Source of the DNA: a virus
Reading direction: 5' to 3' (one strand)
Virus record (IMG/VR): IMGVR_UViG_3300010354_000900
Span: 1-20,131 of that record
Length of the DNA: 20,131 nucleotides
The notes below the pieces were generated by a model that was not told the origin of the DNA, made no database searches, and was given only the letters and a program-made list of their open reading frames with translations. Positions 11,736 through 18,527 of this stretch are shown piece by piece. The translations under genes and the position numbers were made by a program. Position 1 is the first letter of the stretch; each line of letters begins with the position of its first letter.

Positions 11736-12149
11736 TTATGATCTTTTTGATGCAGCTCTTTTTGCCATTTTGCTTACAGTGGAAACTGATTGATCGCCGC
11801 CCGATACATTACCAATTTCATTGCTATCGGTCTCTGGCCCAATATCAATAGTTTTTGTATCACTAACTGATGGGTTAAGATAGATATACTTAAATCCGTT
11901 TTCATCGCCACTGATCTTAGAGATGATGTTTTTCACCGCAGATTTTTTATCGTAAAGATTTTTTAGTGTGTCTACATTGAACATTTCTGATCCAGGTCGT
12001 GTTCGTACCATATTGACTAAACTATCAATACGAATTCTTGGCGCCTGATCAGTATGCCTGAATCGATTTCGAATTTCTTCTAAAGCGTCTAGAAGATTAT
12101 TTAAAGCAGAAGGATCCTGTCCTTCTGAAATAAATTCGCGAGCTCTCAT
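11736..12149 (-). CDS. Small probable virion protein with capsid-targeting-like N-terminus (137 aa)
   Basis: The 137-residue protein begins MRAREFISE followed by GQDPS. This resembles the T4 capsid-targeting peptide of internal head proteins (MKTYQEFIAE), which the prohead protease gp21 removes after (L/I)xE; here the site would be ISE. The rest is a helical, charged segment (ALNNLLDALEEIRNRFRH), a middle domain with SLVNMVRTRPGSEMF, and a polar tail ending KRAASKRS. Its ATG overlaps the upstream stop (TAATG) and GAG-rich sequence precedes it. It is followed by the terminator at 11680-11725. Capsid location is inferred from the N-terminus. Confidence 0.6.
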   Translation of the reverse strand: MRAREFISEGQDPSALNNLLDALEEIRNRFRHTDQAPRIRIDSLVNMVRTRPGSEMFNVDTLKNLYDKKSAVKNIISKISGDENGFKYIYLNPSVSDTKTIDIGPETDSNEIGNVSGGDQSVSTVSKMAKRAASKRS

Positions 12150-14303: not shown

Positions 14304-15392
14304 TTAACGCTCTTTAGAGAAATGAGCTATTCCAAAATTTGGATTGATAAGTTTAATTAACCCCAGGCTAGTTGGAAATACGATTCCTTCGCCGCCGGGT
14401 CCGGCTATGGTTTTTTGATTGAAACCTTTTATCTGGGACTCAAACGCATTGACCAGCTCAATTTTAGTTTTAAAAATCGAATTCCATATTTGATACAATG
14501 AATCTAATCCTGACTTATTTTTAACTAAATATCCCGATTCGCCATCCCCTAATAGATTTTTTTGCTGTTTAAGATTAGCATTTTTTTGTAACCAAATATT
14601 GATAGTATCTTTAGTTTGTTGAGTTCGAATTTGATTTAAATAAGTTCCTAATAATTTTTTTGCTACATTATCGAGACCTGATAAAAATCTGTCAGATTCT
14701 GGTCCTTTAATTGACACTCTAGTTTCGGCATCTCTAATCATTTTTAAAATTGCATTTTGATTAGGTAATGTAAATGTCATATCGATGTTAGGTGGAATAA
14801 CTGCAACATTACTAATATTTGATAGCCCCGATTGTCCATCCCATGGTTTACCGTTATGTTCATGTACAACAATCAAGGCGACTTTATTGAACATTAATTT
14901 ACCCAAATAGCTATCTTTATCAACAGTATATTCAACTGTAGTCGGCCCAAATACAAAATTATCATTTTCGGGCTGTAATCCGGCAGAATTTACTACCATT
15001 AGGTCGCCTTTAAAAACACCGGCATTATTACTTACACTTTTAGAAAGACCAGGCCAAATTGTATCAATTTTATAGTATAGATCGGATCTATTAGCACCTC
15101 GCTGTATATCATAGTCTCTCCACCCTTGAGAACTAGTAGGATATACTCCTTTGGCTGGCATATACTTGTCAGTCATAAAAAACTGACCTTGTTGATTTCT
15201 ACCAAAATACAATGCGATACCGCCATCCCATTTAATAGTTGCCAATTCAGGATTCTGCACTATTTCTTTTAAAGCCCTAGTATAATTCATTGCTTGGGAA
15301 GAACCTTGCAATATAGAATCCTCGGGATGGGGAATCCTTGGCCCATCGCCGATAGCTTCAACTAAGTATTCTGAAAATCTTTTAATAGTCAT
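14304..15392 (-). CDS. Ligase-like covalent nucleotidyltransferase with capsid-targeting-like N-terminus
   Basis: The 362-residue protein shows motifs of the ATP-dependent ligase/capping superfamily: KWDG at 54-57 (motif I, Lys54 the candidate AMP acceptor) in ATIKWDGGIALYFGRN, VFKGDLMVVN near 126-135 (motif III), EGIVFP at 335-340 (motif IV) and LIKLINP (motif V, Lys347). Between motifs III and IV lies a helical stretch far longer than in compact RNA ligases. It begins MTIKRFSEYLVE then AIGDG; LVE fits the (L/I)xE prohead-protease site of T4 capsid-targeting peptides. Its ATG overlaps the stop of the nucleotidyltransferase gene (ATGA). Joining of RNA or DNA ends is the likely chemistry; the substrate is unknown. 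Confidence 0.7.
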   Translation of the reverse strand: MTIKRFSEYLVEAIGDGPRIPHPEDSILQGSSQAMNYTRALKEIVQNPELATIKWDGGIALYFGRNQQGQFFMTDKYMPAKGVYPTSSQGWRDYDIQRGANRSDLYYKIDTIWPGLSKSVSNNAGVFKGDLMVVNSAGLQPENDNFVFGPTTVEYTVDKDSYLGKLMFNKVALIVVHEHNGKPWDGQSGLSNISNVAVIPPNIDMTFTLPNQNAILKMIRDAETRVSIKGPESDRFLSGLDNVAKKLLGTYLNQIRTQQTKDTINIWLQKNANLKQQKNLLGDGESGYLVKNKSGLDSLYQIWNSIFKTKIELVNAFESQIKGFNQKTIAGPGGEGIVFPTSLGLIKLINPNFGIAHFSKER

Positions 15393-16858
15393 AGTGAGTT
15401 ACTAATCTGTCTAAACCAAGCCGCAGTTCCTGGTTGTATTGTTTCAGGTAATTTCATTAGGCCTTTAGCAGCATCTTGCCTAGCTTGAGATAACTTACCT
15501 TCTTTATCGGGATCATTTTCTAGTGCTTTGAGAATTGTCTTAACACTATTTAGATCGTTTTCTTTAGCTTTTGGACCTAATAATATTTTAGCAACTTCTT
15601 TACGAGTTCTGCCAACAATCTCGTTATCATCCCGACGAATTAAATTTGCACCAAAAGGATCAAATTTTAATCCTAGATATTTGGCAATACTACTAATTAA
15701 CATAAAGACTTCGCTACCCTTGAATTCAGGATCCGAATACATCCCCCGTAGTCCATGTTGGTGCCATGGTGCAACTATAGATGCTTCTTTAATTATCATT
15801 ACATCAACTTGAGCTATTTGTTTTTTTCTAGTTTTACCAGCAACATAAACGATTCCAATACTTACATTGCGACCGTTAACATTGGCTTCTATACCTTTAT
15901 TTTCAAAATAAGATTTTAATTTTTGTTTTGCCTCTTTAACAGGATCTTTAGAATCTTCTGTTTTAAACAATTTAATTACATCTTCGGCTTCAACCATTAG
16001 ATCGATATCGCCCGATTGTAGTTTATATCCAGCAGACCCTATATCTGTTTGCAGTTGCGGAGTTAATTCTGCTGGTATTAATTTTTTAGCCAATTCAACT
16101 ACAGTTTTAACATCATCTTGATTAACTGGAACAGAGTTAGCTATTGCATTTCCTCCTTCATTGATAACTGCGCTTTCGGTTACATTGGTCGGTGGTCTTG
16201 CACTAGAAATATTAGTAATATTAGAACCGGCCCCCGGAGCAGAAAAATCAAATTGCTGTTGTGCTGTTGCCGCTTCAAGATCGGGATTTTTAATTTGTTT
16301 ACCTGACTGTATAGCTAGTTTTATATCATGATATGTTTTATTCAAGAACTGAATATCTTTGGGGACTTTGATTTCTTGACCGTTTTCTTTATAGGTCCAA
16401 GTTTTCTTTTTAGAATCATAATATATAATATGACCTTGAACATTTAATTCGGCATCCACTCTAGGATAAGCATAATCCGTAGGAAGTTGCGACGGGGTGC
16501 TTGTTGTTGCAGGTGCTGCTTGAAAATATTCCTGTATTCGTTTAAAAATATAATCGTAAATGATATTATTATTTAAAACACCAGAAGGTATAGCTACATT
16601 TGAATTAGGACGATCGTGAAATTGCTGATTTGCCCAATTGGTTAAAATTTGGTTTAGTTGACCGGGAGCTACATTAGGATGCCTTGCTACTTCTTGATTC
16701 CATTTTTGAAAATAATGATCGGCTACCTTTTTAAGTTCTTCCTTTTCGGCTCGTTGTGCTCTACCTGCTTGCACATTTCTAATAGCCCCTTGAATACCAG
16801 ATCCTATTTTTCTAGCCCAGTCGCCGATTCCTTCGTAAACTATTTCATTTATTTTCAT
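15389..16858 (-). CDS. Pol-beta-type nucleotidyltransferase with long N-terminal extension
   Basis: The 489-residue protein has a nucleotidyltransferase domain in its second half: Gly274-Ser275 (IGSAGYKL), Asp284-Ile-Asp286 (SGDIDLMVEA) and third Asp352 (QVDVMIIK), the GS...DxD...D metal triad of the Pol-beta fold. Residues 1 to about 230 are an uncharacterised helical extension with Pro/Thr- and Ala/Gln-rich linkers. It starts MKINEIVYE then GIGDW, similar to capsid-targeting peptides. A second site-like INE at 232-234 followed by GGNAI resembles the start I recall for shorter phage homologues, suggesting fusion of two proteins or proteolytic release of the enzyme. It overlaps the upstream gene by 14 bases and the ligase-like gene by four. 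The added nucleotide and the target are unknown. Confidence 0.75.
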   Translation of the reverse strand: MKINEIVYEGIGDWARKIGSGIQGAIRNVQAGRAQRAEKEELKKVADHYFQKWNQEVARHPNVAPGQLNQILTNWANQQFHDRPNSNVAIPSGVLNNNIIYDYIFKRIQEYFQAAPATTSTPSQLPTDYAYPRVDAELNVQGHIIYYDSKKKTWTYKENGQEIKVPKDIQFLNKTYHDIKLAIQSGKQIKNPDLEAATAQQQFDFSAPGAGSNITNISSARPPTNVTESAVINEGGNAIANSVPVNQDDVKTVVELAKKLIPAELTPQLQTDIGSAGYKLQSGDIDLMVEAEDVIKLFKTEDSKDPVKEAKQKLKSYFENKGIEANVNGRNVSIGIVYVAGKTRKKQIAQVDVMIIKEASIVAPWHQHGLRGMYSDPEFKGSEVFMLISSIAKYLGLKFDPFGANLIRRDDNEIVGRTRKEVAKILLGPKAKENDLNSVKTILKALENDPDKEGKLSQARQDAAKGLMKLPETIQPGTAAWFRQISNSL

Positions 16859-17096
16859 TTTTTAATTTTCTTATCCCACGAACAAATTTGGTTGAGTCGC
16901 CACTACGAATACTATTCAACAACCGGCGCTCAAGTTCTCCGGAAACTTCTTGATCGTAATTTTCTCTTATAAAGGAAAGTAAATTAATGGCACTTTGAAT
17001 AACATTAGCTGCACGACTTTCAACAAAGTGTTCTTTGTCTCTTTGTGTTGCAATCTGATCTAATTCAGCCAATAAACTTTTAGTACGATTTTGCAA
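16845..17096 (-). CDS. Conserved small helical phage protein (83 aa), TTG start
   Basis: The frame opens at a TTG at 17096; GGAGG lies nine bases before it, and the only nearby ATG (17112) is in another frame, so TTG is the likely start. The protein is helical and charged (SLLAELDQIATQRDKEHFVESRAANVIQSAINLL, shown as its core theme in two helices) and ends in SGDSTKFVRGIRKLKNENK. I recall close relatives in marine T4-like phages, without function. A perfect late promoter lies just upstream, so it may be the first gene of the late nucleotidyltransferase/ligase unit. It overlaps the next gene by 14 bases. Confidence 0.75.
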   Translation of the reverse strand: MQNRTKSLLAELDQIATQRDKEHFVESRAANVIQSAINLLSFIRENYDQEVSGELERRLLNSIRSGDSTKFVRGIRKLKNENK

Positions 17097-17117: not shown

Positions 17118-17125
17118 TATTTATA
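17118..17125 (-). promoter_or_regulatory. Perfect T4-type late promoter TATAAATA
   Basis: TATAAATA on the minus strand overlaps the TAA stop of the helicase gene. RNA would start near 17112, giving a 16-base leader that includes GGAGG before the TTG at 17096. It separates early replication genes from the late unit behind them. Confidence 0.8.
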
Positions 17126-18527
17126 CTTGTGAGCTTTTAAAACTGCTTAACATTTGTCGTAGTTTTGTAGATTCTGATGATACATTTATTTTAGGTTGAT
17201 CGGATGATGTCGTATCTTTGTTAATAGTAGTTTTAGTTCTAATAGATTCTAACGCAGAAACTGCACTGTTCCTATAAGCAGAATCCTCTTTGGGCGATTC
17301 ACCGGGATCAGTAATACGCATATTTTCCATATTATAATCTAAATCGATTTTTTGTCCTACACCAGTCGAACTACGAGATTTCATGCATTGAATCTGATAT
17401 TTCCCTCTTTCTCTCATTGCTCTGCTAGTAAAAATACCAAATACATTATCGGCAGTATTAATTTTACTAATACCACCCGAAATATGACTATGATCGAATT
17501 CGACTTCTTCTACTGCACTTCGATTTAATTGACTAGCTGTTACCATTAAGACGCCTAGCTCTTTGGCTAAATTTCTTAATTCTTCAGAGACATACTTGTC
17601 TTTAACGAATAAATCACTAGGACTAACTTTAGTACTCACTGGCATAAGCAAATCTAAATAGTCAACCATAACAAAGTCTACCCGGATTCCAGTTTGAATC
17701 TGTACTTCTTTTAAGTAGCTGCGTATATCATTAATATTACTCTGCGCCGGAAGACCTTTTACACGATATTGTCCGGCTTTTTTTCCAGCTATTTTAATCT
17801 TTAATTCTGTATTTTCTATGTCTCTTCGTATCTCTTTTGTACTCATACCAGTTAACATAGCATCAGTTCGCAAGCTAGTTAATTCTTCGCTAAGTTCTAG
17901 AGTAATATAAATTCCACTAAGACCGGCCTGTAACCAGTTCAATGCTATGTTCATCATAACCAAAGATTTACCCGACCCAGAGCCGCCGGCGAAGATGTTT
18001 AGTTCGCCTCGGCTGAACCCACCATATAGCAATCTATCCATTTGAGGCCAACCTGTGCTGACTTGTCCGCCACTGTTAAAATATTTGTTAATACGCTCAC
18101 TGGGACTAGCCCAATAGTCTGTGCCCATGTCCTTGGTTAAACTAATTTGTACGGCGTCTTTGATCAGTCGCTCAACAGGATCAAACTCACCCTTTTCGAT
18201 CATGTCCGCGGCTTTGAGAATTGCTCTTTCAAGTTCTTGTTTTTTGGTAAACGACTCAAACTCATTCATAAACCATTCTAAATGGTTATCGTTTATTTCC
18301 GGAACAGGGCGTAATTCAACACCTGTAACTGCTCTTATTTGATCATAGGTGGGCAAAGTTTTATACTGATCCGAATGTGTAGCTAAAAACTTAGCACACT
18401 CTCTTAGACCGCGATCAAAATTGTCTGGATTGTAGATATTCTGAACCCGCACAAAACTTTGTGCGTCAGTTAACATAATTTCTAAAAATAGTTTTTGTAA
18501 ATCAACCGAATATTCTTTAAGAGTCAT
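17121..18527 (-). CDS. 41: Replicative DNA helicase, DnaB/T4 gp41 type
   Basis: The 468-residue protein has an N-terminal helical domain (about 1-150) that in this family binds the primase, then a RecA-like motor: Walker A GGSGSGKS at 181-188, ITLELSEE, Walker B VDFVMVDYLDLL at 283-294, and the TASQLNR motif (Gln333) that senses nucleotide. The tail after about residue 405 is polar and probably flexible (many Ser, Thr, Lys). It unwinds DNA 5' to 3' on the lagging strand as a hexamer. The gene begins three bases after the primase stop with no clear ribosome-binding site, but a promoter-like pair ends just before it. Confidence 0.94.
   Translation of the reverse strand: MTLKEYSVDLQKLFLEIMLTDAQSFVRVQNIYNPDNFDRGLRECAKFLATHSDQYKTLPTYDQIRAVTGVELRPVPEINDNHLEWFMNEFESFTKKQELERAILKAADMIEKGEFDPVERLIKDAVQISLTKDMGTDYWASPSERINKYFNSGGQVSTGWPQMDRLLYGGFSRGELNIFAGGSGSGKSLVMMNIALNWLQAGLSGIYITLELSEELTSLRTDAMLTGMSTKEIRRDIENTELKIKIAGKKAGQYRVKGLPAQSNINDIRSYLKEVQIQTGIRVDFVMVDYLDLLMPVSTKVSPSDLFVKDKYVSEELRNLAKELGVLMVTASQLNRSAVEEVEFDHSHISGGISKINTADNVFGIFTSRAMRERGKYQIQCMKSRSSTGVGQKIDLDYNMENMRITDPGESPKEDSAYRNSAVSALESIRTKTTINKDTTSSDQPKINVSSESTKLRQMLSSFKSSQV

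Follow-up and report, generated by a model that had tools for sequence, protein, structure and literature searches.

Two kinds of system come nearest to the gene pair described here—the internal proteins of phage T4 and the RlaP nucleotidyltransferase that accompanies an RNA ligase in jumbo phages—and neither covers it. Phage repair of host RNA damage, whether by T4 Pnkp/Rnl1 or by jumbo-phage RlaP and its ligase, needs prior phage gene expression, and translation-stopping defences can block such repair. African swine fever virus (ASFV) carries Pol X and an ATP-dependent ligase for polymerase X/ligase repair. The T4 proteins include an anti-restriction inhibitor (IPI) and an ADP-ribosyltransferase (Alt; PMC9958956); for jumbo-phage RlaP the prediction is that it puts back missing nucleotides ahead of the sealing step (PMC7824862). 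We analysed a 20-kb virus record, IMGVR_UViG_3300010354_000900 (20,131 nucleotides, referred to as the window), in which a nucleotidyltransferase (NTase) gene overlaps a gene for a ligase-like protein of the family DUF6267.

The pair resembles T4 IPI-IPIII and Alt in its 10-20 residue N-terminal peptides with an [L/I]xE cut, in its late-promoter setting and in the T4-type protease, found here in a relative; however, the cargo consists of a nucleotidyltransferase and a ligase, and a cut predicted inside the NTase precursor would separate two domains. With RlaP (PF10127) and the RNA ligase of jumbo phages it shares a Pol-beta-superfamily NTase co-occurring with a ligase, but PF10127 matched neither the window NTase nor five related contigs, RNA_ligase PF09414 (Rnl2-type) matched neither the window ligase nor ten related contigs, and a late promoter and protease-site leaders set the present pair apart. 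ASFV Pol X has the same short PolX catalytic core and is the best match of the NTase in VIA structure comparisons, yet the virus is unrelated, and in the present ligase motif IV is preceded by a helical region (residues about 212-318, from the secondary structure of the model). In cyanophages, a DUF6267 protein goes together with an HxGH cytidylyltransferase (the S-PM2d138 fusion; SSM1_189/190 in S-SM1) that has an FLNE↓A or FLSE↓A leader (the arrow marking the predicted cut) and is found in S-SM1 virions; there the partner is, judging from its HxGH-type sequence, a Rossmann-type nucleotidylyltransferase rather than a PolX, and some DUF6267 copies lack both the leader and motif III. The open-access literature searched yielded no account of a polymerase-ligase pair that is packaged and processed by a prohead protease, and the term DUF6267 was likewise absent from it.

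A late operon in a probable giant T4-like phage

The replicative helicase encoded in the window (17121-18527) shares 48% identity with its counterpart in Pseudomonas jumbo phage PA5oct and is likewise close to the helicases of Agrobacterium phage Atu_ph07 and Sinorhizobium phage Phosso. Because of this similarity, the phage, probably a giant T4-like one, is likely to belong near these T4-like jumbo phages. The link of the window NTase to isolate phages runs through the helicase and through a divergent relative of the NTase; the window protein itself gave no match in tblastn searches against isolate phages, and a contig scan of bacterial and archaeal genomes found no relatives of it.

Two overlapping reading frames had been predicted at 14304-16858, and both are present there on the minus strand (as are all other window features given below), with an overlap of 4 bp. 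The upstream frame (15389..16858) encodes a precursor of 489 aa that appears to comprise a capsid-targeting-like peptide, an internal-protein-like domain and a PolX-like nucleotidyltransferase; the downstream frame (14304..15392) encodes a 362-aa protein assigned to DUF6267 (PF19782) and to the ligase superfamily from Pfam, an AlphaFold (AF2) model and VIA. The head of the operon is a gene for an 83-aa protein (16845..17096) that matches phrog_11854 'virion structural protein' (E 1.1e-16) and corresponds in position to PA5oct gp259. About 22 nt upstream of this gene lies TATAAATA (17118..17125), a -10 element of the T4/cyanophage late-promoter type; NATAAATA is the late promoter of cyanophages and TATAAATA that of T4 (PMC2984593). 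The evidence for this element is its position and conservation—a TAAATA core lies at most 50 nt from the operon-head gene in 50/50 relatives, compared with 5% when upstream regions are shuffled and 23% for other genes. By number alone, TATAAATA does not exceed chance in the window (3 vs 4.2 expected). The same core precedes the NTase gene in 2/84 cases and the ligase gene in 0/77, both genes being inside the operon. Elsewhere in the window, a short protein (11736-12149) has the N-terminus MRAREFISE↓G, with a prohead-protease-like site; its relatives start MRAREFIVE or MRASEFLAE↓S.

Two scans of viral contigs, one per protein, provided the set of loci compared here. NTase and DUF6267 genes were found together in 140 loci, of which 95 are distinct by NTase sequence, locus counts being inflated by relatedness. 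They are linked in all 140, with a 4-bp overlap in most; in the remaining loci about 1 kb separates them and usually holds a second Pol-beta-type NTase with a leader of its own. The survey of co-occurrence suggested by the original prediction thus came out in its favour, with the pair and its cut sites conserved across the 95 distinct relatives. Five loci have the NTase only, and in these the contig ends within 660 bp of it; the DUF6267-only loci represent contig ends, cyanophage-type phages, or L153 and L154, whose ORF also includes a divergent NTase as a fusion partner. Fusion of the NTase and ligase genes into one ORF was seen in some loci, and in L153 it gives a polyprotein of 1105 aa.

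Several further arrangements were observed. The second Pol-beta-type NTase (MKIRDIILE↓GGWDTT...YGDIDLQ...QIDFMW; L006:1339-2355, L007:3196-4212, L076:4734-5762) sits between NTase and DUF6267 in many relatives, and its L006 copy had no Pfam or PHROG match. Two DUF6267 paralogues, the first closer to the cyanophage type, flank the NTase in L098, L101, L102 and L103. In the cyanophages S-PM2 (LN828717, 93485-95260) and Syn9 (gp183/gp184), DUF6267 and the leader-bearing HxGH-type cytidylyltransferase are encoded side by side or as one fusion. No kinase or phosphatase partner was identified near the pair.

Predicted folds and catalytic motifs

The enzyme part of the NTase precursor spans residues 235-489 (15392..16156), with GGNAI as its predicted mature N-terminus. 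The Pol-beta motifs that had been claimed (GS, DxD and D) are present as G274-S275...D284-x-D286 (16001..16039) and a third catalytic Asp, D352 (15803..15805), and residues G274, D284, D286 and D352 are each kept in 58/58 homologues. Structural comparisons place a PolX fold at residues 237-439, with Pol mu as a Foldseek match (E 1.1e-4, probability 1.00) and AsfvPolX as the best VIA match (Z 9.7, 158 aligned, rmsd 3.4 A). The 50 VIA matches listed are all DNA polymerases X (AsfvPolX, lambda, beta, TdT, mu); CCA-adding enzymes, RlaP and MNT-type NTases are absent among them, which does not by itself exclude these classes. The family had no match in PHROGs, NCBIfam or Pfam, and PDB sequence searches with single proteins and profiles gave nothing meaningful. 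Ahead of the enzyme lies the internal-protein-like domain (residues 10-234; 16157..16831), which ends at a second predicted cut, E234↓G235. The window gene is itself a fusion of this domain, the cut and the enzyme: its first ~120 residues match a separate leader-bearing gene in other phages, located directly upstream of the NTase in, e.g., L118, L073, L079 and L042. Residues 197-234, ending at the INE↓GGN site, are of low confidence in the model and probably flexible.

The product of 14304-15392 matches DUF6267 with 65.2 bits (cut-off 27; E 9.4e-18), and the profile is matched by all 64 aligned members. DUF6267 is a previously unannotated Pfam family without known function, with several hundred matching records among sequenced cyanophages. 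KWDG, EGIV and a lysine had been read as ligase motifs; all three are there, kept in 64-67 of 67 homologues, and agree with the motifs of the covalent nucleotidyltransferase/ligase superfamily (I, KxDG; IV, EGxV; V, K). Motif I, K54-W55-D56-G57 (15222..15233), contains the predicted adenylated lysine (K54 in 66/67, D56 in 67/67); motif IV is E335-G336-I-V338 (14379..14390; E335 65/67, G336 67/67, V338 66/67), and motif V is represented by K347 (14352..14354; K 64/67, R 3/67). A motif III-like G129-D130-L131 (15000..15008) is conserved in 65/67, 64/67 and 63/67, respectively.

The AF2 model of this protein has a pLDDT of 93, with low confidence at residues 12-16; the AlphaFold models were built on 58-64 sequences. 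The best 50 of 666 chains aligned by VIA are all ligases, led by the Naegleria RNA ligase 6vt9 at a Z of 7.6 (183 aligned, rmsd 4.1 A), although values below 8 can reflect a common arrangement; DNA ligases come next at Z 6.4 and lower, a lead for the RNA ligase of ~1 Z unit. Foldseek alone gave a weak match that was not significant (E 0.34). The homogeneity of the matches and the motifs are, at these middling scores, supportive of a ligase fold rather than proof of it. Of the two folds expected by the original prediction, PolX is thus clear in the predicted structures, and the ligase fold appears with middling scores plus motifs, which gives DUF6267 a predicted fold and a testable activity. 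When the model was compared with BFVD, the first match with a named ligase function was an Atu_ph07 'RNA ligase' of 324 aa (E 0.0099, probability 0.69), which by length and phage would be the NTase partner there. In hhalign comparisons the DUF6267 profile found nothing in T4 Rnl2 and nothing significant against the Atu_ph07, Phosso and PA5oct ligases, so that these are treated as analogous partners and not as proven orthologues. A role of DUF6267 as replicative ligase is unlikely, as a conventional DNA ligase is encoded elsewhere in the relatives G001, G003 and G006.

Predicted processing and virion evidence

The N-termini singled out in the original prediction, MKINEIVYE↓GIGD in the NTase and MTIKRFSEYLVE↓AIGD in the ligase, read as described, although only the ligase has [L/I]xE. 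Its capsid-targeting-like peptide MTIKRFSEYLVE (15357..15392) has a predicted cut at E12↓A13, with Glu at P1 in 63/66 homologues, and the site YLVE↓A fits the [L/I]xE criterion, at residues 9-20, of T4-type internal (CTS) proteins. The corresponding NTase peptide, MKINEIVYE↓G (16832..16858), has V at P3 (VYE↓G) instead of L/I; N-termini of its relatives include MKVNDIINE↓GP, MKTNEIIVE↓GP and, in L004, ELNE↓A. The second site of the window NTase, INE234↓GGN, which the original prediction had overlooked, is better conserved and lies directly before the catalytic domain. Across the loci, [LI]xE[AGS] occurs within the first 22 residues of 74/86 DUF6267 proteins and 74/87 NTases (~86% in both families), compared with 99/1207 other gene-like ORFs (8%), a background drawn from the same loci and not neutral, as neighbours also carry leaders. 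The aligned columns have the pattern of the T4 prohead protease, with L/I at P3, a free P2, Glu at P1 and Ala/Gly at P1': in NTases (n=58), P3 is L in 39 and I in 15, P2 is variable, P1 is E in 55 (Met in the other 3) and P1' is G in 56; in DUF6267 (n=66), P3 is L in 55 and I in 8, and P1 is E in 63. T4 IPII/IPIII start with MKTYQEFIAE↓A, and the DUF6267 protein of L079 with MKTYREFLTE↓A.

The fused NTase-ligase ORFs have a site at every junction (LME, LSE, LNE, LLE, IAE or ITE), and the 1105-aa ORF of L153 has LNE↓GG and LTE↓AR at its two junctions; sites in such positions are not required by targeting alone. Moreover, translation of the leaderless NTases of PA5oct, Atu_ph07 and Phosso starts precisely at the N-terminus predicted for the mature enzyme (M-[SG]-G-x-AF). 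We considered E-GG as a mere structural motif unlikely, given that P2 varies between fixed P3 and P1 positions and that leaderless homologues start exactly there. In the 267-kb relative G001, PF03420 identifies a prohead protease of the T4 type (E 2.2e-28); the capsid protein of this relative has LLAE↓SSAG close to where T4 gp23 has FLTE↓AEIGG.

Evidence from virions comes from relatives. PA5oct gp253, a homologue of the NTase by hhalign (probability 98.5, E 1.7e-15), is annotated, like several of its neighbours, as a structural protein by ESI-MS/MS. Since this virion-listed protein carries no leader, either the peptide is dispensable for packaging or the list includes carried-over material. 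The ligase-like gp256 of PA5oct has no MS tag in its record; this gene (NC_071039, 150524-151864), annotated as hypothetical and located near gp253, has the ligase-like motifs EKIDG...EGYV...KIVDK. The Atu_ph07 pair is at about CDS 65-66, within the CDS 31-76 region to which the account in PMC6102473 assigns 29 virion proteins by MS. In cyanophage S-SM1, the gene after DUF6267, the cytidylyltransferase T4-GC190, is given as detected in virions (PMC3037559); its leader is FLNE↓A, and DUF6267 itself in Syn9 and S-SM1 is without leader and GDL motif. The late promoter, present in 50/50 relatives, and the MS-tagged homologue PA5oct gp253 lend support to the capsid packaging that had been claimed.

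Proposed role and competing readings

We favour, with a probability of about 0.55, a late-expressed, head-packaged pair of PolX NTase and DUF6267 ligase that heals nucleic-acid ends. Head-packaging of the pair is well supported; end repair, and with it the targeting, cleavage, ejection, catalysis and substrate set out below, is what we infer. Transcription from the late promoter at 17118-17125 would yield the internal-protein/NTase precursor and the DUF6267 ligase, whose N-terminal peptides would carry both into the prohead core. A T4-type prohead protease would cleave the ligase once, after E12, and the NTase precursor twice, after E9 and after E234, leaving mature NTase (GGN...) and mature ligase (AIGD...) in the DNA-filled head. 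Both enzymes would reach the cell along with the genome; there, the NTase may add missing nucleotides and the ligase may seal the ends via AMP on K54, before any phage gene expression. If true, a kit delivered with the genome would escape the translation-stopping block. In a more general form, we see an even chance that every virion of T4-like jumbo phages carries a ready-made end-repair kit, in some phages produced as a prohead-protease-cut polyprotein, for mending tRNA cleaved by the host or breaks in the phage DNA at entry, ahead of all phage gene expression; such processing of enzyme polyproteins is a probable theme.

As to the substrate, we lean towards RNA (tRNA-like) ends over DNA ends. 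A packaged pair that mends breaks and gaps in the phage DNA itself, by gap filling and nick sealing as in ASFV and not on RNA, is a serious though less likely contender: PolX homology favours DNA, all 50 listed structure matches of the NTase being DNA polymerases X, as does residence among the packaged DNA. On the other side, RNA is slightly favoured because the Atu_ph07 partner ligase is RNA_ligase-like (PF09414 E 0.002, below the cut-off; named RNA ligase in BFVD) and because a separate, conventional ATP-dependent DNA ligase is already present in 3/10 sampled relatives; the best structure match of the ligase is also an RNA ligase, though with a lead over DNA ligases of ~1 Z unit.

That the packaged enzymes modify other host molecules, e.g., by nucleotidylylating proteins in the manner of phage polyvalent-protein Pol-beta domains, seems improbable to us. 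Such modification has been predicted for injected Pol-beta NTases (PMC5512222) and would suit the second leader-bearing NTase lying between the pair in many relatives, but the strict pairing and repeated fusion with a ligase fold point to a two-step end reaction. Less plausible still are ordinary late enzymes that stay outside the virion, their N-terminal peptides being coincidental or serving another purpose; while some homologues do lack leaders, the frequency of [LI]xE (~86% against the 8% background), the junction sites kept in fusions and the MS-tagged homologue all argue against this reading. Arrays of apparent paralogues with N-termini like MRWHQLxE/MRITELLE were also seen to adjoin the pair in Atu_ph07 (MF403008, about 43300-50600) and in L085 (8843-10200 and 12827-13486), and these are possibly further injected proteins.
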